Assembly: GCA_001799195.1 (NCBI GenBank)
Contig: MGSU01000026.1
Span: forward strand, 151 to 19,294
Direction: 5' to 3'
DNA: 19,144 nucleotides
Source of the DNA: Deltaproteobacteria bacterium RIFOXYA12_FULL_61_11
GTDB lineage: Bacteria > Bdellovibrionota_F > JAHFAK01 > YA12-FULL-61-11
Position numbers and translations under genes: made by a program. Under the pieces are notes generated by a model. That model searched no databases. It had not been told where the DNA came from and saw only the letters and a program-made list of their open reading frames with translations. Shown here one piece after another: positions 1 through 18,209 of the stretch; position 1 is the first letter of the stretch; the number at the start of each line of letters is the position of its first letter.

Positions 1-26
1 TGCGAGAACGAGTCCGGAGGTGGGGG

Positions 27-2291
27 ATGACGATGAGGATGAGACCCGTGGGGAGCACCCTGCGCCGCGCGGCCTGGTGCCTGCTCTCGTCCGTCGTGCT
101 GGCAGGGTGTCCTGCTCCGACCCAGATCGATGATTTTCCTGGTGGTACCGGCGATACGACCCAGCAGCCCCCGAAACAACCCTTCATCCCGACCCCGATC
201 ATTCCCCCGGAGATAAACACCGGTTCTGGTAACTATCCGGGCAAAGATCCTTCCCTCCAACCGGTCGGCCCCGGCGACAACAGCTCCGACCCCACGGCCC
301 CCCAGGGTCCGCCGAGCGAAGAAACCCCCGACATCGCGGTACACGAGCAGGTCAAGGCCACGGTCGGCGACCTGGTCATCTTCCTCCTGCGCATGAACAA
401 CACCAGCACCGTGGGCTTCCGCTACCTGCTCGAGCCCAACACCAAGGGTGCGACCATGGACGAGGGGACCGGGCAGTTCCGGTGGCCCACCTCCTCGGAG
501 TACCTCGGCCAGCACAGCTTCCGGGTCATCGTGGCCAATGGCGAGATGAAGGATGAGGTCTTCCTGTCCGTGAAGGTTCAGCCGCCCGGGATCGACCCCG
601 GCGAGACCCCACCCGAGCCCGTGGTCGAGAACCAACCTCCCGTGCTCAGCCCAATCGGCAACCAGACCATCTACGAGCGCGAGACCGTGACCCTGACCCT
701 GACCGCCACCGATCCCGAGGGCGACCCCTTCGTCTTTGAGGCGAAGAACCTGCCCGATACCGCCGAGTTCGACCCCGCCACCGCGCGCTTCACCTGGACT
801 CCCGAGATCTTCGACGAGGGCACCCACAACGCCACCTTCGTGGTCAAGGACCAGAGCGACGACCGCCTCAGCGACGAGAAGGTGGTCAGCCTCACGGTGC
901 GCGATTTTCCATTCGTGCCAGAGAGTTACGAAGAACAGCGCTACCTGCTGCCGGTGTACAAGAGAGCCGCCGATTTCGACAGCGAGCTGGTTCTTTTCAA
1001 CAACGCGGCCACGGGCACGGCCACGGTCGTGGTCACCTACCGCAAGTCGGACGGGGTCGAGGTGGGCACCGAGAACGTGTCCCTGCCGGCCCGCGGGCAG
1101 CAGCGCATCCTCAACCGCACGACCGCGCAGATCGCGGACACCACATTCAGCGGTCTGGCCGTCATCACCTCCAACTCGCCGCTCAGCGTTGTGCTGCAGG
1201 CCGAGCGCGTGGACGTCGCCGATCCCGCTCACGACACCAACGACAGCTTCAGTTACCCGGCCTTCGCCACGGTGAGCAAGAAGCTGTTCATTCCGCTCCT
1301 GGAGAAGAACCGCACTCCCGGGGACTTCAATTCCGCGATCTCCGTTTTCAACCTCGGGGACGAGGACACCGCGGTCACGGTCAAGTTCCTAGCTCAGGTG
1401 AGCGGCACTGTTTACGACTCGGGTGTGCAAACGTTACCCCCGAACAAGAAGTTGACCCCGGCTGTGAGTGAAAATACCGACCTCCCGGACGGCCGGTTCA
1501 GCGCCGTGCTGCTCTCGACCAAGACCCCGATCGCGGCCTATGTCCATTCCGACTCCAATGCCTATGTCCCGGTCGGCACCGATCGCCTCCCCATGTACGG
1601 GATGCGCGGGTACGGGACCACCGCGCAACCGGCCCATAGCCCGCGCTTGATCCTGCCCTACGTGGCTAACGCCGCGGGTGGGTATACCAGCACCGTGGCG
1701 GTGCAAAACGCCGGCAGCGAGGCGGCCACCATCACGGTGACTTACTACAGCAAGGCCGGCGCCGTGGCCAAGACCGTGACCTCGGCCTCGATCTCGCCCG
1801 AGGCGGCCTGGATCTTCGCCACAAGCAGCACCGACGTTGCTCCGGCGGCCGGGTTCGACGGGTTGGCCGTGCTCGACAGCGACAAGGACGTGCGCCTGGT
1901 GGCCTCGGTGTTCTTGGACAACAATGCCGTCGATATCGGCATGGGGTACAACGGGGTCGCCCCTGTGGGTAAGACGCTGTTCCTCCCCGCCATTTACAAG
2001 GGTCTGGCCGGGCGGCAGAGCTGCATCCGCGTGGTTCATGACCAGGCCGCCCCGCTGGGGGTTGCCGTGGACTTCCACGGCGAGAACGGAGCCTTGGCGG
2101 CGCAACAGAGCGCCACGGTGCCGGTCAACGGGTACGCAGAATTCTGCACGTCCGGCATCGCGGCCCTGCCCGCGAACTTCGCCGGCTCGGCCGTGGTCAC
2201 CGCCGACCAGCCCATCGCGGCCTCGGTCACCTCGCCCAGCCCGAGCGAGGAGCGGGGTTTGTCCTACTCGACCGCCGGTTCGGAGGAGTAA
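27..2291 (+). CDS. Secreted lipoprotein with two Ig/cadherin-like domains and four beta-rich repeats
   Basis: Predicted 754-residue surface or periplasmic lipoprotein; the biochemical role is unknown. The ATG is preceded by GGAGG at 16-20, six bases upstream. Residues 1-28 form a lipoprotein signal: several Arg, a hydrophobic core, and lipobox L25-A-G-C28. Residues 30-100 are a Pro/Gly/Thr/Gln-rich linker. Residues 103-185 and 204-292 look like cadherin/putative-Ig beta sandwiches; the second has the phrase NQPPVL..IGNQ, then ATDPEGDP and FTWTP, which is characteristic of such domains. From residue 306 there are four degenerate repeats starting near 306, 420, 541 and 651. Each opens with an L-x-P strand, then a 'S-x-(V/I)-x-V-x-N' type strand, and closes with a 'G-x-A-V-(I/L)-x-S/A-D' type strand. 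Domain content suggests adhesion or a structural surface role. It lies co-directionally 452 bases before the Hint lipoproteins, but that gap argues against a simple operon. Confidence 0.85.
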   Translation: MTMRMRPVGSTLRRAAWCLLSSVVLAGCPAPTQIDDFPGGTGDTTQQPPKQPFIPTPIIPPEINTGSGNYPGKDPSLQPVGPGDNSSDPTAPQGPPSEETPDIAVHEQVKATVGDLVIFLLRMNNTSTVGFRYLLEPNTKGATMDEGTGQFRWPTSSEYLGQHSFRVIVANGEMKDEVFLSVKVQPPGIDPGETPPEPVVENQPPVLSPIGNQTIYERETVTLTLTATDPEGDPFVFEAKNLPDTAEFDPATARFTWTPEIFDEGTHNATFVVKDQSDDRLSDEKVVSLTVRDFPFVPESYEEQRYLLPVYKRAADFDSELVLFNNAATGTATVVVTYRKSDGVEVGTENVSLPARGQQRILNRTTAQIADTTFSGLAVITSNSPLSVVLQAERVDVADPAHDTNDSFSYPAFATVSKKLFIPLLEKNRTPGDFNSAISVFNLGDEDTAVTVKFLAQVSGTVYDSGVQTLPPNKKLTPAVSENTDLPDGRFSAVLLSTKTPIAAYVHSDSNAYVPVGTDRLPMYGMRGYGTTAQPAHSPRLILPYVANAAGGYTSTVAVQNAGSEAATITVTYYSKAGAVAKTVTSASISPEAAWIFATSSTDVAPAAGFDGLAVLDSDKDVRLVASVFLDNNAVDIGMGYNGVAPVGKTLFLPAIYKGLAGRQSCIRVVHDQAAPLGVAVDFHGENGALAAQQSATVPVNGYAEFCTSGIAALPANFAGSAVVTADQPIAASVTSPSPSEERGLSYSTAGSEE

Positions 2292-2743: not shown

Positions 2744-4585
2744 ATGAACCGTTTTCTCATCGCAGGGATGATCCTGGGCTTCTGTCTGGTCGGGTGCGTC
2801 GATGACGGCGACGACGGGCTCTACCAGCAACCCCAGCAGCCTCAACAGACTCAGACACAGCCACCGGTCCTCGACAGTGCCTGGTTCCAGCAGACCAGCA
2901 ATGCCGAGGTGACCTTCGACGCCGAGGGAATTCCCGAGCACGTCCTCGAGCGGCATCAGAGCGGAGCCATCAGCCAGCTCAACTCGCTGCAGGACCTGTT
3001 CGTCTTCGAGGCCGGGGAGATGGCCGCCGGAGAGTATGAGACCGGTGAACAAGTTCCCCTCAAGCTGGCCTTCGACGTCAAGAAGGCCTCGCACATCGGC
3101 GAGTACAACCTGATCATCTCCAACACCACGGGGAAACCGGTCATCGCCACGGTCGAGCCGATCTCGGGCGGGAAACCCTACGCCTTCGTCGACCTCAGCG
3201 CTCAAGGCTTCGGGGCGACCAGCGAGACCGCGCCGAGCATCTTCGATCTCGACCTCGGCGTCCCGGCCTCGGGGGACGATCCCATCCCGGTGATCCTCTT
3301 CGTCTGTCTGGACTCCAACGACAACGGTCGCTGCAACGACGAGCGGATCAAGAACCTGAACTTCTACATCAACCAAGTGCCCAACGATATCGTCGCGGAA
3401 CAAGAGATCAGCAGGGAACTCGAGCGCATCCTCTCGGCCGACCTGGCCACGGATACGGAGACGGAAAAGCTCCTCAAGGGTATTCCGAGCAACCGCGGCT
3501 TGGTGTATTACGCCCAGAACGCGATCCTCGATCCCATCAAAGGTAAGTTGATGGATTACAACACCTTCACCAAGCAGGTGGGGGCTGAATTCTCCCAGTT
3601 CGGCGGTTTCGCTCCCAAATACTTCCGCGAGGGCGAGGTCAGTGGTGATGCGCCGCTGGCGTCCGGGGCCTTCGCCAGCACCGAGGCCGTCGAGACCGTG
3701 TTCACCATGGTCGACGAGATGTTGCGCAGCGAGAATGCCGCGATCGGCTCCGAGATGGTCTCGGTGGAAACCGGGGCGCCCCTGGAGATCACCATTCCCC
3801 TCGTCCAGTACGAGGCGACCCTCTTCTCTGCTGCCCCGACCGCGGGCGATGAATTTGCCCCGGCCGATCCCACGGGCGGCGAGACCGGTGGCGAGACCGG
3901 TGAGCTCGAGACCGGCGGCGACGAGTTCGATGATGCGGTCGAGGTTGTAGGTCCGGGCACGGGCAGCACCTGTTCGGCGGTATGTACCTGTCTGGCGGAC
4001 GGAAGTATGAAATGCGTGGTGTCCGGTCCGGTGAACGCCAGCCAGATCGGGCGATGCCAGGAGGCCTGTGCCTGTAAGGCGGCCGGGCAGAGCGGCCTGG
4101 TCTGCGAGCGGGAACCGCGCATCACGGGTTGTTTCGTCGAGGGTACCCTCCTCCGCACCGGGGAACAGGCCATGACGCCGGTCGAGAAGCTGATGCCGAA
4201 AGACACCGTCCTCGATGCCAAGAACCGGCCTCGGCAGGTCCTCAGGGCTGTCGCCGGGCCCGAGAAGGAAAAGGTCTTGTACCTTACCACGGTGTCGGGT
4301 CAACGACTCGGCGTCTCCGAGGGCCATCCGATGATGACCGCCAGGGGGCTGATCCTCGCCCGCGAGCTGACCCCCGCGGACAAACTGCTGCGCGCGAACG
4401 GCACCTACAGCGAGTTGGCTGGCATCGAACGGGTGCTCTACACCAAACTCGTCTACAACATCGCCCTCGACGGAACAGAGAGCGAGGTCGAGACCCATTT
4501 GCTCCAGTCGAACGGTTTGATCACCGGGGATCTCGTGTTGCAGAACTCGTTGGCAAAACCAGCGGCGACGGCCTCGGTGCGCTGA
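2744..4585 (+). CDS. Lipoprotein with one eight-Cys module and C-terminal Hint domain (paralog 1)
   Basis: Predicted 613-residue lipoprotein. The open frame extends up to 2627, but ATG 2744 is chosen because a G-rich ribosome site (2731-2736) sits 7 bases upstream and translation from there gives a proper signal peptide with lipobox L15-V-G-C18, followed by acidic residues and a Gln/Pro linker. Residues 40-360 are a body shared with the next gene. It includes an EF-hand-like loop D190-x-N-x-N-G-x-C-x-D-E200 that probably binds calcium. Residues 370-405 are an acidic Gly/Thr/Glu linker. Residues 410-454 hold eight cysteines in two 'CxxxCxC...C' halves resembling VWC-type modules. Residues 463-601 are a Hint domain: G462-C463-F464 entry, an EGT turn, block-B-like S-E-G-H528, and H585 with a NGLITGD terminus. 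There is no terminal His-Asn and no downstream extein or toxin. By family knowledge Hint domains activate the Gly-Cys bond for cleavage or transfer. The identity of the acceptor is unknown. Confidence 0.87.
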   Translation: MNRFLIAGMILGFCLVGCVDDGDDGLYQQPQQPQQTQTQPPVLDSAWFQQTSNAEVTFDAEGIPEHVLERHQSGAISQLNSLQDLFVFEAGEMAAGEYETGEQVPLKLAFDVKKASHIGEYNLIISNTTGKPVIATVEPISGGKPYAFVDLSAQGFGATSETAPSIFDLDLGVPASGDDPIPVILFVCLDSNDNGRCNDERIKNLNFYINQVPNDIVAEQEISRELERILSADLATDTETEKLLKGIPSNRGLVYYAQNAILDPIKGKLMDYNTFTKQVGAEFSQFGGFAPKYFREGEVSGDAPLASGAFASTEAVETVFTMVDEMLRSENAAIGSEMVSVETGAPLEITIPLVQYEATLFSAAPTAGDEFAPADPTGGETGGETGELETGGDEFDDAVEVVGPGTGSTCSAVCTCLADGSMKCVVSGPVNASQIGRCQEACACKAAGQSGLVCEREPRITGCFVEGTLLRTGEQAMTPVEKLMPKDTVLDAKNRPRQVLRAVAGPEKEKVLYLTTVSGQRLGVSEGHPMMTARGLILARELTPADKLLRANGTYSELAGIERVLYTKLVYNIALDGTESEVETHLLQSNGLITGDLVLQNSLAKPAATASVR

Positions 4586-4711
4586 AAGAGCCGAGGAGCA
4601 CCGGTTCCAACCGGGAGTGGGTGAACAGTGGGAAGCCGAGGAGAGGCGATGCTCGGGCGAGCGTTGTCTCCCCCGTTGGAGAAGGGCAAGGCGTTCGAGG
4701 GGGTACAAGGC
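4586..4711 (+). other. Short spacer between the two Hint lipoprotein genes
   Basis: This 126-base spacer holds a small GCTCG-GG-CGAGC inverted repeat (4651-4662) and the G-rich ribosome site of the next gene (about 4697-4703). I see no terminator with a U-tract, so the two genes are probably co-transcribed. Confidence 0.4.
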
Positions 4712-7222
4712 ATGAACACGATGGGGAAGTTGGTTCTGGTGCTGCTCCTGGGAGCTTTCCTGGGATGTGTCGATGACGGTAACGACGAGCAGGTGGGGGC
4801 GCCGCTCACGCCCGTGGACCAGCAGCCGGTGCAGCAGCCGGTCGATCCGGGCCAACAGGTCCCGGTCCTGGATACCGACTGGTTCCAGGGCAACAACCAC
4901 GCCCAGACCACGGTCAACATCGACGATGTGCCGGATCACTTGCTCCAGCGCGCGGGCGCGGGGGGCATCATCAACCAGCTCAATTCCTATCAGGACCTGT
5001 TCCAGTTCCACGTCGGGGAGGGCGATGCCAATCTCTCGTCCTGGACCGAGGCCGAACGGATACCGCTGAACTTGGCTCTCAACTTCGACCAACGCTATCA
5101 CCTGGGTGAGTACAACCTGATGGTCGCCGAGCCCAGCACGCACCCGATCATCGCCACGATCGAACCCGTGGTCGGCGGCAAACCCTTCCTCTCCTATAAT
5201 CTCACCCAGAACGGGTTCTCCACCTCGACCCGGGAAGAGACCGCGGGAGTCGATCCTCGCTACCAAGCCCGCTTCGACCTCCCGGCCGGGGTGACCGACC
5301 CCCTGGCCGTGCTGCTCTTCGTCTGTCTGGATGCGAACGAGAACGGGCGGTGCAGCGACGAACGGGTGATGAACCTCAACTTCTACATCAACCAGATCGA
5401 TCCCACGATCAAGAACGAGGCCGAGGTCCAGCAGGCGCTCGACACGGTCATCACCACGGCCAACAAGACCTACTTCCTCCAGGCCGGAGAGGCTCCGGGA
5501 ACCGTGTACTACGCCTTCCGCGCCATCCTCGATCCTGCCCGTAAGTCATTGTTGAGTTACAAGGATTTCTTCGCCACCAAGGGGATGGCCCTGCCGTCGA
5601 ACCACAAGCCCGCGTTGCCCGGGGTCAAGTTCTTCACCCTGGCTCCCGAGGGAGGCGAGGAGGTCGACGGCGCGGTCGAAGAGGCCCTCGACTTCGTGGA
5701 CGAGATGTTGCGCTCTGAAGAAGCCCAGTTCGCCGGCGGTTCCGAGATGGCCCAGGTCGGCGCGGAAGCCGAGCCCATCGACATCGATCTGCCCGTGATC
5801 CAGTACCAACAAGCGCTCTCCAGTACCCTGGGGGACGACTTCGCCGAGGCCGCGTACGACGCCGAGGCCGTGGCCGCGGCTTTGGCCGCCGATCCCTTGC
5901 TCTCGGACGAGGACAGCCAGTTCTTCGCGGCCTTCCAGGCCGAGGCTCTCGTGGCAGCGGAAGGGGTTGCCTCCTGCCTCGAGATCTGCCGCTGCATGCC
6001 CGACGGCACCGTGGACTGTGCTACGCACGACATGACTCCCGCCGGGCTCTATGACAAGGTCTCGATCTGCAAACCCTGCCGTTGCGACGCAGGTGAGACC
6101 GGCCCGGTGCTGAACTGCGGTGAGAACGGCACCGAGATGATGGCCTATACTCCTCCGGTTCTGCCCGAACCGACCAGCGAACGCCTCTGCGGGCAAGCCT
6201 GCATCTGCATGCCCGACGGCGAGGTCGTTTGCGGCAAGACCCCGGCCGGGCATTACAACAAGACCGCGCGCTGTCTGGCCGAGACGAGCCCTACCTGTAC
6301 CTGCGACAGCGCGGGGTACGAGGATGCGGTGACATGCCCCGATGTCAAGGCCTACGAAATCGCCAAACCGCCGACGACGACCAATCCCGCGGCCCATTGC
6401 TCCACGGCCTGCCTGTGTGCTCCGGACGGAACCGTCGTATGCGCGCGGCCGCCGTCAGGCTTCGTCGATAAAACCACCGCGTGTAAGACCAACTGCAACT
6501 GTGTGGCTCCGGGTTCGGATGATGCCATTGCTTGCAGCCCTGATCCCTACGCTTTCGAGGTCATCATTCCCGAAGGGCCCATCGAGAACGTGCCCGGTAC
6601 CGTCATCCACTGCTCGCAGGTCTGCACCTGCCGGGTCGACGGGACCAAGGTCTGTGTGCCGGTTGTCGGCAAAGAGAGCTTGATCGTCAAGTGTGACAGC
6701 GACTGCGCTTGCAAGGCTCCCGGGAAGAGCGGACTCGAGTGCGATCGCGACCCGCGGGTCAACGGCTGTTTCACCGAGGGGACGATGATCCTGGTCGGTC
6801 CGGACAGCTACAAGCCGGTCGAGCAGCTCACCACCCGCGACACGGTGCAGGACAAGCAGGGGCGAACCCGCGCGATCAGTCGTATCGTCGACGGGCCGGA
6901 GAAGTATCGGGTGGTGGTGCTCACCACGGTCGCTGGGCAGACCCTCGGCGTCTCGGAGACCCATCCGGTGATGACCCGCGCCGGCCTGAAGATGGCCCGG
7001 GAATTGACCGTCCTGGACAGCCTCCTCCGCACCGACGGGACCTATGTCGAGCTGGCCGGGATCGAGCGCCAAGTGCCGACCGGCCACGTCTACAACTTTG
7101 TCCTTGCCGGTGAGGGAGAAGAGGTCATGGACCACCTGATCGTAGCCAACGGTTTGGTCACCGGTGACCTGACCGTCCAGCATCGCCTCGAACAGGGCAA
7201 GGCTGTGGCCGCGGGTCGCTGA
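4712..7222 (+). CDS. Lipoprotein with four eight-Cys modules and C-terminal Hint domain (paralog 2)
   Basis: Predicted 836-residue paralog of the preceding gene. The frame is open from 4628, but ATG 4712 follows a GAGGGGG ribosome site by 8 bases and begins a lipoprotein signal ending in F16-L-G-C19, a weaker lipobox than in paralog 1. ATG 4721 is an alternative start. The shared body includes 'PVLD(T/S)(D/A)WFQ', 'HLGEYNL', 'A-T-I-EP', and the EF-hand-like loop D207-x-N-x-N-G-x-C-x-D-E217. Residues 375-420 form an acidic Ala-rich linker. Four tandem eight-Cys modules follow (C422-C469, C493-C542, C563-C608, C634-C677), against one in paralog 1. The Hint domain starts at G685-C686-F687 with block B S-E-T-H751 and ends H808 plus NGLVTGD. 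The last Cys module stops only eight residues before the Hint Cys. As in paralog 1 no cargo follows. Likely role: a membrane-anchored, self-processing surface protein (inference). Confidence 0.87.
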   Translation: MNTMGKLVLVLLLGAFLGCVDDGNDEQVGAPLTPVDQQPVQQPVDPGQQVPVLDTDWFQGNNHAQTTVNIDDVPDHLLQRAGAGGIINQLNSYQDLFQFHVGEGDANLSSWTEAERIPLNLALNFDQRYHLGEYNLMVAEPSTHPIIATIEPVVGGKPFLSYNLTQNGFSTSTREETAGVDPRYQARFDLPAGVTDPLAVLLFVCLDANENGRCSDERVMNLNFYINQIDPTIKNEAEVQQALDTVITTANKTYFLQAGEAPGTVYYAFRAILDPARKSLLSYKDFFATKGMALPSNHKPALPGVKFFTLAPEGGEEVDGAVEEALDFVDEMLRSEEAQFAGGSEMAQVGAEAEPIDIDLPVIQYQQALSSTLGDDFAEAAYDAEAVAAALAADPLLSDEDSQFFAAFQAEALVAAEGVASCLEICRCMPDGTVDCATHDMTPAGLYDKVSICKPCRCDAGETGPVLNCGENGTEMMAYTPPVLPEPTSERLCGQACICMPDGEVVCGKTPAGHYNKTARCLAETSPTCTCDSAGYEDAVTCPDVKAYEIAKPPTTTNPAAHCSTACLCAPDGTVVCARPPSGFVDKTTACKTNCNCVAPGSDDAIACSPDPYAFEVIIPEGPIENVPGTVIHCSQVCTCRVDGTKVCVPVVGKESLIVKCDSDCACKAPGKSGLECDRDPRVNGCFTEGTMILVGPDSYKPVEQLTTRDTVQDKQGRTRAISRIVDGPEKYRVVVLTTVAGQTLGVSETHPVMTRAGLKMARELTVLDSLLRTDGTYVELAGIERQVPTGHVYNFVLAGEGEEVMDHLIVANGLVTGDLTVQHRLEQGKAVAAGR
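5975..6742 (+). repeat. Four tandem eight-cysteine protein modules
   Basis: Modules lie at 5975-6118, 6188-6337, 6398-6535 and 6611-6742. Each follows C-x3-C-x-C-x7-C-x(12-16)-C-x(2-7)-C-x-C-x(9-10)-C, with 'PDG(T/E)VVC'-like text in the first half. The single module in paralog 1 is at 3971-4105. The pattern resembles VWC/antistasin-type disulfide modules, but I cannot assign a named family. Confidence 0.75.
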
Positions 7223-7245: not shown

Positions 7246-8850
7246 CTACCCGCGCTGCTCCCTCGACTGCTCGAACGCTCGGGCCTCGACTTCGAAAGGT
7301 ATGGCGATACATGCCCCGGCCAGGTTCTTTCCCCCGAGGAGCCCTCTGAAGATGTGCAGGAGGTAGTGCGCGAAGACGCGGAGTTTCCCATAACGGTGGA
7401 ACTGGGCCAGGTGCAGGTATTCGTGCGTCGGGACCACGGCGGTCTTCGCGCCGGCGTAGAGGGTGCGGCCCCAGGTCAGGTAGGAGAGCCCCAGCTTCCG
7501 GGGCAGCCAATGTCCTTCGCAGAGGCGGAAGTCGCGGCCGGGGGTGAGGTCGAGGCGGTAGCCGCGCCACGAGAGAGGAGACCCGGCAACGTCCCAGGCT
7601 GGGCGCAGGTCTTTGTCGAAGCGCGCCGCGAGGTCGCTCGGGGGCAGGGCACAGAGACCGGGCCAGAGCCGTTCGCTTTCTGCGCGGCACAAGGGAAGCT
7701 CGCGGGCTGAAGCAAGGGTGGGGGCGACATCGTGGACCACGCAGCGGTTCACGGCATGGCGGCAGGGGCGACGCATCCTCTCCCAGATCAGGGGCAGGGG
7801 TTCTTCGGTCAGGTTGCCGAACCCGAGCTTGAGCAGTTCGCACGGCAAGACGTTGCCTCGGGCGTCGATGTAGAGCTTCTGCCCGGCGGTCGCGGTGCAG
7901 CCGAACTTGTCGGGTTCCTCGTTGTACCAGGGCATCGCGATGGAGATAGGCCGCCTCGAGGCGTTCTGCCGGCGGTAGAAGTCGATGAGCACCTCTTTCG
8001 TCTGACCGTCGAGAGCGAAGTCGCTCGGGCTTTCCGTCGCCCTCCCGACAGGGCGGATCTCGTTGAGCTGGATGGAGTGGCCGCCGAGACGCTCGGCGAG
8101 GTCGACCACGGCGAAGACGTCCCCGTTCGCGACCGTGCTCCGGGTCACACAGCAGACCACCGAGACGTAGAAGCCGAGTTTTCTGGCAAGGGTGATCGTC
8201 TCGCACGCCGAGGCAAATGCCCGGGTATTCCCACGCCGGCGGTTGTGTTCGGCTTCCAGATGGTGGTCGAGGCTCACGTAGATACCTTGGAGTCCGGCCG
8301 TGTGCAGCCGCCGCAGGCGTTCCTCGCTCGCCCCCACCCCGGAGGTGAATATTCGGGTTTCCATGGAAGGAGTTGCGGCTTCGACGAGGGTGACGAGGTC
8401 GTCGAAACGCTGGAAGGGCTCTCCTCCGACGAAGAAGAGCAAGGGGACGCCGAAGCCGGAAAGATCCTCGACCGCCCGGAGCAGCAGCGGCAAGGGCAGG
8501 TCCCCGGACTGCAGGTTCACGACGTGACAGTGGACGCAGCGACAGGGACAGAGGTTGGTGACGGCGAGCTGGCCGTAGATCGGTTGGTGTGGATAGGTCC
8601 TCCGACAGTTGTTTTCGAGCGCGAGGTTGAAGGCCGGACCCGGTACGGAGGGCGCGAAGGGATCGAGAAAAATCTGTCCGCCCGCGCGAACGTACTTGGC
8701 GTTCTTGAACTTTGCAGCAATGGCGAACTGCTTGCGCAGGGCAGCGCTAACCTCGAGAGGGGAACGCTTGCCCGACAGCAGCATCCCCGCGTTGCCGGCC
8801 AGGATCGAGGCGCTCACGGCCGCCCTGAGGAGATACTGGGTCCAGTGCAT
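7246..8850 (-). CDS. Radical SAM/SPASM-like protein fused to a C-terminal HExxH domain
   Basis: Predicted 534-residue protein. The ATG has GGAG five bases upstream. The N-terminus (about 5-28) is hydrophobic and may associate with the membrane. Residues 95-270 form a radical SAM core with the [4Fe-4S] motif C101-x3-C105-x2-C108 and a GGEP motif (142-145) typical of S-adenosylmethionine binding. Residues 318-370 carry further cysteines (C318, C337, C363, C370) around 'DARGNVLPCE', as in SPASM or twitch regions that hold auxiliary clusters. Residues 440-530 form a separate domain with H476-E-Y-L-H480 and a downstream 'FEVEA' (519-523), matching the zinc-ligand layout of DUF4157-like HExxH domains. 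Substrate unknown; possibly peptide or lipid modification. Last gene of the five-gene minus-strand operon, 25 bases after the acyltransferase. It ends 23 bases from the convergent Hint paralog 2. Confidence 0.85.
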   Translation of the reverse strand: MHWTQYLLRAAVSASILAGNAGMLLSGKRSPLEVSAALRKQFAIAAKFKNAKYVRAGGQIFLDPFAPSVPGPAFNLALENNCRRTYPHQPIYGQLAVTNLCPCRCVHCHVVNLQSGDLPLPLLLRAVEDLSGFGVPLLFFVGGEPFQRFDDLVTLVEAATPSMETRIFTSGVGASEERLRRLHTAGLQGIYVSLDHHLEAEHNRRRGNTRAFASACETITLARKLGFYVSVVCCVTRSTVANGDVFAVVDLAERLGGHSIQLNEIRPVGRATESPSDFALDGQTKEVLIDFYRRQNASRRPISIAMPWYNEEPDKFGCTATAGQKLYIDARGNVLPCELLKLGFGNLTEEPLPLIWERMRRPCRHAVNRCVVHDVAPTLASARELPLCRAESERLWPGLCALPPSDLAARFDKDLRPAWDVAGSPLSWRGYRLDLTPGRDFRLCEGHWLPRKLGLSYLTWGRTLYAGAKTAVVPTHEYLHLAQFHRYGKLRVFAHYLLHIFRGLLGGKNLAGACIAIPFEVEARAFEQSREQRG

Positions 8851-16436: not shown

Positions 16437-16532
16437 AGAGCCAGACCCCAGGCAATAGGCTGCCGCGCACCCCGTCAGATCCGGAAGGAAGCAGCGGACG
16501 CGGTGGGTCTATGTGCCTGGCAAGTCTGGCTT
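16437..16532 (+). ncRNA. ffs: Small bacterial signal recognition particle RNA (4.5S type)
   Basis: The apical loop text GTCAGATCCGGAAGGAAGCA (16473-16492) is the conserved SRP domain IV that binds Ffh. The helix closes with AGCCAGAC (16439-16446) against GTCTGGCT (16524-16531), and CCAGGC (16448-16453) against GCCTGG (16515-16520). Length is about 96 bases, with no Alu domain. The closing stem runs into TTTT (16531-16534), so it may also end transcription. It lies between tRNA-Ser and dnaX, an order I know from several bacterial groups. Confidence 0.92.
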
Positions 16533-16575
16533 TTCTTCACTCCGACGGTGCGCCGAGGACGGAGGACGGTTTGTC

Positions 16576-17721
16576 ATGACCTACCAGGTCATAGCCAGGA
16601 AATTCCGGCCCCAGGTCTTCGAGGATTTGATTGGGCAACAGCACGTCACGCGCACCCTCTGCAATGCGATAGAGCAGGGGCGTATTCCCCATGCCTTCCT
16701 CTTCACCGGCACGCGCGGGGTCGGGAAGACCTCCGCGGCCCGGGTCTTGGCCAAGGCCCTGGTCTGCGAGCAGGGGCCGACCCCTCGCCCCTGTAACCTC
16801 TGCGAACACTGCCGCAGTATCACCGCGGGCAATCACCTCGACGTCTTTGAGATCGACGGCGCCTCGAACCGGGGGATCGACGAGATTCGCGATCTGCGCG
16901 AGAAGATCGCCTATATGCCCTCGAAGGCCCGCTTCAAGCTCTACATCATCGACGAAGTCCACATGCTCACCTCGGAGGCCTTCAACGCCCTGCTCAAGAC
17001 CCTCGAAGAGCCGCCCGAGCACGTCAAGTTCATCTTCGCCACCACGGAAGCCCACAAGATCCCCAGCACGATCCTGTCGCGGTGTCAGCGCTTCGATTTC
17101 CGGAAGATCGGGGTCGGCCTCATCGTCGACCGGTTGGTCGACATCTGCGAGCGAGAGGGAGTCGGCGCCGAACGCTCGGTGTTGACCACGATCGCCAGGG
17201 AGGCCGGGGGAAGCATGCGCGACGCCCAGTCCCTCCTGGACCAGGTCATTTCCTTCAGCGGCGGGAACCTGGGTGGAGCCGGATTGTCCGAGCTGCTCGG
17301 GCTGCACGACCAGGGCAAGGTCCTGATCCTGTTGAGGGCTCTCTTCGAGGGTGAGCTTCCCAGGGCCTTCACCCTACTCCGCGAGATCGACGAAGCCGGT
17401 CACGATTTCGGGCGCTTCCTGTTGGCCTTGATCGAGACGCTCAAAGACCTGATCGTGCTCTCGGTGGCTGGAGAAGCCGGAGCGGAGTCTCTCGATAGGA
17501 CGGCCGAAGAACTCGTGGAACTGCGCAGCCTCGCAGGGTTGCGTTCCACCGGGGAAGTGGAGTTGATCAACGACCTCTTCCTGCGCGGCCATCAACTCCT
17601 GCATGGTTTCGAACACCCGAGATTGCTGCTCGAGATTCTCGCGTACAAGGCGGTCCTGGTCGATGGGTTGATCCCGATAGAAGACCTGGTCCAGAGTGTC
17701 AGGGAAAAAAAAAAGACCTGA
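16576..17721 (+). CDS. dnaX: DNA polymerase III gamma-like short product
   Basis: The zero-frame product ends R-E-K-K-K-T then TGA (17719-17721), giving 381 residues with the ATPase and oligomerisation parts but no tau C-terminus. In organisms with this arrangement, gamma takes part in clamp loading alongside tau. The stop lies immediately after the slippery A run, as in E. coli and Thermus dnaX. Confidence 0.85.
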   Translation: MTYQVIARKFRPQVFEDLIGQQHVTRTLCNAIEQGRIPHAFLFTGTRGVGKTSAARVLAKALVCEQGPTPRPCNLCEHCRSITAGNHLDVFEIDGASNRGIDEIRDLREKIAYMPSKARFKLYIIDEVHMLTSEAFNALLKTLEEPPEHVKFIFATTEAHKIPSTILSRCQRFDFRKIGVGLIVDRLVDICEREGVGAERSVLTTIAREAGGSMRDAQSLLDQVISFSGGNLGGAGLSELLGLHDQGKVLILLRALFEGELPRAFTLLREIDEAGHDFGRFLLALIETLKDLIVLSVAGEAGAESLDRTAEELVELRSLAGLRSTGEVELINDLFLRGHQLLHGFEHPRLLLEILAYKAVLVDGLIPIEDLVQSVREKKKT

Positions 17722-18209
17722 AGGCCGCTCCGAGCGATCTTTGTATCCCCCGCCCGACCCGTCCAGAACGAGCGGCCCCGGTGCTGGTCCGGGAGAGTGA
17801 CGGCACGGACCAGGACCTCGAGCACTGGCGGCGCTTCGTCGACGAGTACAAAGAGCATGACCCGGTGGACGCGGGGTTGTTGCGTAAGGCCGAGCTGGTC
17901 AGACTGGATGATCGGGGGATCTCGCTGGCCTTCCCGACCGAGGGGGCTTTCACGGTACGGTTCGAGAGCGACGAACGGCGGAACGCCCTCGCGGGCTCCC
18001 TGGGACAATTCTGCGGACGGGAGCTCGAGGTCGAATTCGAGTTCCGGGCGTTGGTCGAGGGAGCGAGAACGATCGAAGCCCTGGAACAACGCGAGAGTGC
18101 CCTGCGAGCCGAGCAACTCCGCGCCTCGTGGTTGACCGATGAACGCGTTCGACTGCTAACCGGAGTATTCGATGTGACCCTGGAACGGGTTTTCGCCGAG
18201 GAGGATTGA
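16576..18209 (+). CDS. dnaX: DNA polymerase III tau subunit, made by -1 frameshift
   Basis: Full-length clamp-loader subunit, 544 residues if ribosome or polymerase slips -1 at the A10 run (17705-17714). The first 380 residues are the AAA+ part: Walker A G44-T-R-G-V-G-K-T-S52, zinc cysteines C64, C73, C76 and C79, D126-E-V-H129 Walker B/DExx, and S168-R-C170 sensor. After the slip, the -1 frame is open through 17715-18209. It encodes a 163-residue C-terminal region with 'EHWRRFVDEYKE' and a beta-rich end, as in tau C-terminal regions. Tau joins polymerase cores and contacts DnaB helicase at the replication fork. ATG 16576 has GGAGG (16561-16565) ten bases upstream. It is followed closely by ybaB and recR, the usual replication/repair trio. 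Confidence 0.85.
17705..17715 (+). other. Programmed frameshift/slippage site in dnaX
   Basis: Ten A residues followed by G. In the dnaX reading frame the end reads A AAA AAG (17709-17715), the same slippery heptamer used by E. coli dnaX. AGGG (17701-17704) directly precedes the run and could act as a Shine-Dalgarno-like stimulator, although it is closer than in E. coli. A 4-bp CGCT/AGCG hairpin (17726-17736) follows but is weak. Ten A's are also long enough for RNA polymerase slippage, the mechanism known for Thermus dnaX. Confidence 0.8.

Follow-up and report, generated by a model that had tools for sequence, protein, structure and literature searches.

Tandem predicted lipoproteins with a C-terminal Hint domain and a Gly-Asp-x-x-x-Gln motif in place of His-Asn

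Introduction

N-terminal cleavage by inteins involves Cys1, Thr B:7 and His B:10, and B-type BIL domains, which are without block G, cleave without splicing (PMC4031507). Hedgehog proteins cleave themselves with a TxxH motif and Cys258, and D303 is needed for the attack by cholesterol (PMC9163320). The closest described bacterial proteins are those that Burglin, in the main text of the 2008 paper, sets apart from inteins, Hog and BIL domains: they carry a C-terminal Hint-like domain, some have signal peptides, two upstream Cys are conserved, and the members named are MXAN_6253, STIAU_1829 and proteins of Reinekea, Photorhabdus, Serratia and Yersinia, a group noticed earlier by Dassa and Pietrokovski (PMC2362128). 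In the open-access literature, with most subscription papers outside the scope of the search, we found no functional work on bacterial C-terminal or lipoprotein Hint proteins. Here we describe two such proteins, A and B, encoded in tandem in a window of 19,144 nucleotides from Deltaproteobacteria bacterium RIFOXYA12_FULL_61_11 (contig MGSU01000026.1), and compare them with these systems.

Results

Architecture of proteins A and B

Both ORFs were intact in the window by ORF calls and translation (Table 1), and the features that an earlier note on this DNA had named, a lipoprotein signal in each protein and a Hint domain entered by Gly-Cys-Phe, were found where it had placed them (G462-C463-F464 in A, with the Cys codon at 4130; G685-C686-F687 in B, with the Cys codon at 6767). 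The two proteins are ~48% identical overall and 54% in the Hint by pairwise alignment, and in both of them an acidic, Gln/Pro-rich linker follows the lipobox Cys. A strict lipobox pattern is passed by B and by the paralogues C and D; A carries LVGC18, which fits the canonical pattern and fails only this stricter one, because of Cys14. Judged from signal and lipobox, A and B would be bacterial lipoproteins that are exported and lipidated.

Table 1. Features of proteins A and B in the window, and their paralogues on other contigs of the same genome
Feature	Position	Strand	Basis and remarks
Protein A, 613 aa	2744..4585	+	ORF and translation; ATG 2744, stop ending 4585; lipoprotein signal, N-domain, one 8-Cys module, C-terminal Hint, 17-aa tail
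A predicted signal peptide, lipobox L-V-G-C18	2744..2797	+	Sequence; canonical [LVI][ASTVI][GAS]C
A N-terminal domain	2861..3946	+	Common to A-D; assigned to no known family; AF2 model uninformative
A EF-hand-like loop CLDSNDNGRCNDE with Cys188, Cys197	3305..3343	+	Conserved in A-D
A sole 8-Cys module, Cys410-Cys454	3971..4105	+	Cys pattern
A predicted scissile bond Gly462/Cys463	4127..4132	+	Cys463 at intein residue 1, structural alignment
A Hint domain, residues 463-596	4130..4531	+	Profile matches, AF2 model, structural alignment
A motif G595-D596-x-x-x-Q600, at the His-Asn place	4526..4543	+	Family alignment and structural alignment
A 17-aa tail LVLQNSLAKPAATASVR beyond Hint end	4532..4582	+	Translation, family alignment
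Protein B, 836 aa	4712..7222	+	ORF and translation; ATG 4712, stop ending 7222; A-like architecture, four 8-Cys modules
B predicted signal peptide, lipobox F-L-G-C19	4712..4768	+	Lipobox pattern
B N-terminal domain	4850..5974	+	Alignment of family N-domains
B EF-hand-like loop CLDANENGRCSDE with Cys205, Cys214	5324..5362	+	Conserved in A-D
B four 8-Cys modules, Cys422-Cys677	5975..6742	+	Cys pattern
B predicted scissile bond Gly685/Cys686	6764..6769	+	Alignment with A and structure model of A
B Hint domain, residues 686-819	6767..7168	+	Alignment with A, family profile
B motif G818-D819-x-x-x-Q823	7163..7180	+	Family alignment
B 17-aa tail LTVQHRLEQGKAVAAGR beyond Hint end	7169..7219	+	Translation
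Paralogue C, 1125 aa, eight 8-Cys modules	L011:8501-11875		Other contig
Paralogue D, 905 aa, N-domain and Hint kept, an unrelated 4-Cys repeat present eight times	L012:9739-12453		Other contig
Paralogue E, cut by contig start	L013:2-718		Other contig

The pair is in tandem, as the earlier note had said, and is not isolated, since the genome (4.64 Mb in 342 contigs, 87% complete) holds five Hint copies, A to E, and relatives occur in other phyla. The shared N-domain contains an EF-hand-like loop with the consensus CLDxNxNGRCxDE, and among the 290 genomes searched its profile was found in the own genome only, always together with a Hint. Profile comparison of the N-domain with solved structures found no homology (one comparison had no positive control), and an AF2 model built from two rows, A and B, was uninformative (pLDDT 35). 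Between N-domain and Hint, the 8-Cys module is present once in A, four times in B and eight times in C; D combines the same N-domain and Hint with its other repeat, and the stalk therefore seems to have been swapped as a block. The mature Cys other than the lipid Cys and Cys1 come in even sets (in A, Cys188/Cys197 and the eight of the module), which would leave Cys1 as a free thiol.

The product of the gene upstream of A (27-2291) is lipoprotein-like and has a putative Ig domain, and that of the gene downstream of B (7246-8850, minus strand) is a radical SAM/SPASM protein; in neither of these flanking genes was a partner of the Hint proteins recognised. Further along the window, the dnaX ORF (16513-17721, Pfam DNA_pol3_gamma3) ends just past a run of ten A (17705-17714, within 17703-17721), at which the -1 frame is open into the ORF 17781-18209. 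Slippage that yields the tau and gamma forms of DnaX is known for Thermus and E. coli, and the A-run looks like such a site giving two DnaX forms, an assembly error in the run being possible.

The C-terminal domain has a Hint fold

Single-sequence Pfam matches stayed below threshold (Hint_2 E 0.034, Vint E 0.038): against a gathering cut-off of 28.4 bits, Hint_2 (PF13403) scored 15.0 in A, 13.4 in B, 21.2 in D and 21.0 in E. At such scores, A and B would probably escape an automatic annotation. A profile built from 12 family Hints and compared with solved structures, on the other hand, matched best the C. thermocellum BIL domain 2lwy (E 2e-9), and also the Prp8 inteins (E 2e-8) and the Mtu RecA intein (E 6e-7), with Hedgehog at E 0.94 only. 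The earlier note had proposed structure prediction as a check on the fold, and the AF2 model of A residues 450-613 (pLDDT 87.2, pTM 0.81) passed it, its best VIA-align match being a Hint, the gp41-1 intein (Z 18.9), followed by BIL2 6y75 (Z 18.8), 2lwy (Z 18.2), the Mtu RecA intein 2in8 (Z 18.0) and Hedgehog (Z 17.4-17.6; 1at0 17.4). Rows within Z 1 of each other count as ties, and the top rows hold Hint structures only, the missing of other folds there not being counted as evidence. Hedgehog does not score above the inteins and BIL domains (Z 18-19), and the fold therefore does not favour it; the specific likeness to Hedgehog put forward in the earlier note found no backing in the profile values either.

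In the structural alignment, the model span 14..147 (C463..D596) was aligned to 1..440 of 2in8 and to 1..454 of 1lwt (PI-SceI), where residues 440 and 454 are, we take it, the final Asn of those inteins. Cys463 thus corresponds to intein residue 1, and Asp596 to the terminal Asn. Profile matches and a model with Hint as its best structural match argue that the assignment is not due to chance, and with the fold, Cys1 at the domain start and a block B [TS]xxH, A and B are confirmed to carry a C-terminal Hint domain each.

Conserved residues and the Gly-Asp-x-x-x-Gln end

Conservation was read from 20 non-redundant sequences below 75% identity, a set weighted to myxobacteria, in which Cys463, His528, Ala539, Gly553, Asn572, Gly595 and Gln600 (A numbering) are invariant; the block B position, aligned in 19 sequences, is always Ser or Thr. 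At the place of the intein His-Asn, a pair that A and B lack as the earlier note had stated, there is Gly-Asp: the penultimate residue is Gly in all 20 and never His, and the next is Asp in 18, with Ser in two myxobacterial sequences. No nucleophile is conserved at +1, where Leu, Ser, Ala, Asp, Asn and Tyr occur among the 20 sequences. Neither protein presents the arrangement of an intein, in which a Cys/Ser/Thr nucleophile comes after a C-terminal His-Asn (or Gln/Asp), in frame within a host protein; in A and B, Gly-Asp is followed by Leu and by nothing other than the 17-residue tail. Inteins have the fold and the N-terminal catalytic residues in common with A and B. The retained Cys1, block B Ser/Thr and His argue for an active thioester step, and the missing His-Asn and +1 nucleophile argue against splicing; N-terminal cleavage, which the earlier note had favoured, accordingly appears the likeliest activity.

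The earlier note had also stated that no toxin or extein follows. No cargo domain does, and yet a tail is present in both proteins, and the invariant Gln lies at +4, beyond the Hint end, from which we take the short tail to belong to the unit rather than to be a lost extein. In most myxobacterial relatives, and in the Pseudoalteromonas, Azospirillum and Embleya ones, the tail is ~35-45 residues long, with a similar D-[YF]-containing pattern. These data bear on the idea that Asp596/Asp819 cyclises as in Asp-ending inteins, the tail being cut off or ligated. Inteins ending in Asp, Gln or Glu do follow the class 1 route and A-type BIL domains are able to splice without a +1 nucleophile (PMC4031507), and Asp is largely kept at the terminal-Asn position; the constant Gly before it, the Ser found there in two relatives, and the +4 Gln and the long conserved tail of relatives, which point to a tail that is retained and acts together with the Hint, make this splicing or C-terminal cleavage quite improbable.

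The residue at block F:4 is Asn in the family, Asp being the commonest in inteins, and copies D and E have no block F His; the reaction could accordingly be slow, or no longer take place. A Hint that is no longer reactive and serves as a rigid C-terminal cap or binding domain would fit the Asn at F:4 and the absence of His-Asn, and Gly-Asp-x-x-x-Gln could be kept constant just to cap a helix. Such an inactive Hint seems unlikely to us, however, because Cys1 and the block B His would hardly stay invariant in 20 sequences from several phyla if the chemistry had been lost.

As for the entry, Gly-Cys-Phe is constant across the five own-genome copies; in relatives Cys1 is preceded by Ser, Ala, Val, Ile, Leu or Gly and followed by Phe, Leu, Ile, Met, Tyr or Val. 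Since both flanking positions vary, Gly-Cys-Phe was rejected as a diagnostic tripeptide.

Relatives in other bacteria

A and B are part of a wider family with a C-terminal Hint, and neither the five-copy set, nor the relatives in other phyla, nor the Gly-Asp-x-x-x-Gln motif had been seen in the earlier note. A first contig scan with the five own Hints as query returned no relatives, and a four-row Hint profile gave seven named myxobacterial loci. Matching C-terminal Hints occur in Myxococcota (often multicopy and in tandem), Gamma- and Alphaproteobacteria and Actinomycetota. The Hint profile was found at E <= 1e-10 in 62 of the 195 genomes of the phylum that contains Archangium and Corallococcus, with up to eight copies per genome, frequently in tandem. 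The longer myxobacterial Hint proteins mostly have ~640-690 aa, a lipobox by pattern in 14 of 17, and an N-domain unrelated to that of A and B (hhalign probability 0.1). The matching end also occurs in relatives encoded on large replicons of Pseudoalteromonas, Azospirillum, Tistrella and Embleya. For the last three, no obvious signal peptide was seen in the ORF as annotated or listed, and export is therefore not shared by all members. Weak relatives in phages resemble helicase inteins or head-protein Hints.

Upstream of the Hint, a Cys pair reads C-L-E-R-G...D-C-D-Y in myxobacteria and C-L-N-R...D-C-D-Y in Pseudoalteromonas. The N-domain loop CLD...C[NS]DE of A, B and their paralogues (3305-3343 in A) is faintly like this pair (N-domains of L071/L064), a homology that profile comparison did not support.

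Three loci deserve separate mention. Three adjoining myxobacterial proteins at L015 (G029:C33, ~72.8-80.2 kb; open frames of 355-398 aa) have a related C-terminal Hint with a Glu-Pro-Gly-Cys-Tyr entry and Gly-Ser for Gly-Asp, Gln being kept. Outside the own genome, L034 (G393:C97:8820-9293) is one of the closest Hint matches and has the GCF entry and the end NGIVTGDLYLQ; its open frame spans no more than 178 aa, one TGA was counted within the match, and the gene is possibly broken or recoded. On p3 of Azospirillum brasilense (L073:1861-6414), the Hint gene adjoins genes annotated as tryptophan 7-halogenase and LodA/GoxA CTQ-dependent oxidase.

The relatives also speak to a possible origin from a PT-HINT polymorphic toxin locus that has lost its C-terminal toxin cargo. 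PT-HINT and Hint_2 give weak profile matches, mostly below curated cut-offs: PT-HINT matches copy D at E 0.019 and barely reaches its cut-off in the relative L066 (27.8 against 27.7 bits). All five own copies and the relatives read, however, end soon after Gly-[Asp/Ser]-x-x-x-Gln without cargo, and no toxin or immunity candidates were recognised nearby. Loss of the cargo from all of them together with a conserved end is implausible; we give such a remnant very little credence and rejected lost toxin cargo as an explanation.

Discussion

A and B are best called proteins with a terminal Hint of a known kind, in which the N-domain and the Cys stalks are new. The Archangium, Corallococcus and Pseudoalteromonas relatives fit the bacterial group of Burglin 2008, including the Cys pair, as matched by description only; their N-termini are those to which the N-domain and Cys modules of A and B are unrelated. 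The main text of that paper does not describe the Gly-Asp-x-x-x-Gln end (PMC2362128).

Among the solved structures, BIL domains are the best sequence match, and like A and B they have no +1 nucleophile and would be expected to cleave. Type A BIL domains end in His-Asn, unlike A and B, where Gly-Asp stands (Gly595-Asp596 in A). Type B shows no likeness to block G and uncouples cleavage from splicing; in A and B, His-Asn is absent, and a constant motif that runs into the tail stands in the place of block G. A BIL type from Bdellovibrio was reportedly described by Dori-Bachash in 2009.

We think it somewhat likelier true than false that the Hint of A and B is an exported autoprocessing unit, which forms a thioester at Gly/Cys, cleaves, and is released from the anchored Cys-rich stalk. 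After export, Cys18 (A) or Cys19 (B) would be lipidated and disulfides would form in the Cys modules; Cys463 or Cys686 would then attack the carbonyl of the preceding Gly, and water or a small nucleophile would resolve the thioester. The products would be an anchored part, made of N-domain and Cys stalk and ending in a free Gly, and a Hint that is shed with its tail. Gly-Asp and Gln may close the active site in place of His-Asn, thereby allowing N-terminal cleavage without splicing of the intein type. Self-cleavage after export is probable, with hydrolysis as its likely outcome; the role proposed for Gly-Asp-x-x-x-Gln is an inference.

With Hedgehog Hog, A and B have in common the fold, the Gly-Cys-Phe entry, a TxxH equivalent and the C-terminal position in a secreted protein. 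The region of the motif-J Cys400 is occupied by Gly-Asp, and only 17 residues follow D596/D819 (~40 in relatives) where Hog has its sterol- or adduct-recognition region. In an alignment whose Hedgehog sequence is identical to 1at0, no conserved acid aligns with D46 of the Hint, the base D303; sterol attachment is therefore unsupported, and Hedgehog-type sterol transfer was rejected.

A broader form of conjugation, in which an amine or hydroxyl of another molecule attacks the Gly462/Gly685 thioester, would leave the stalk covalently attached by its C-terminus and lipid-anchored by its N-terminus; peptidoglycan, polysaccharide, lipid or another protein are possible acceptors. Hedgehog does this with cholesterol on the same fold (PMC9163320), Gly before Cys1 is constant in the own copies, the conserved tail of the relatives is placed like the Hedgehog adduct-recognition region, and stalks of graded length resemble spacers. 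Against these points, the substrate-activating base D303 has no conserved counterpart, the 13 residues past the invariant Gln in A and B are too short for an adduct-recognition domain, many relatives have no Gly before Cys1, and next to copies C and D no gene could be recognised as a partner, so we hold conjugation to be unlikely. Its fullest version, which we consider less likely still, would have the Hint thioesters couple the Gly C-terminus of lipid-anchored, Cys-rich stalks (1, 4 or 8 modules long) to a different molecule of the envelope, making doubly tethered or cross-linked proteins without sortase, with Gly-Asp-x-x-x-Gln as a new Hint end.

The signature that comes from this work is Gly-Asp-x-x-x-Gln replacing His-Asn, and among the relatives are members of named genera that can be cultivated (Archangium, Corallococcus, Pseudoalteromonas, Azospirillum). 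Were conjugation true, bacteria would have in these proteins a counterpart to the lipid attachment of Hedgehog, with a bearing on how that chemistry arose.
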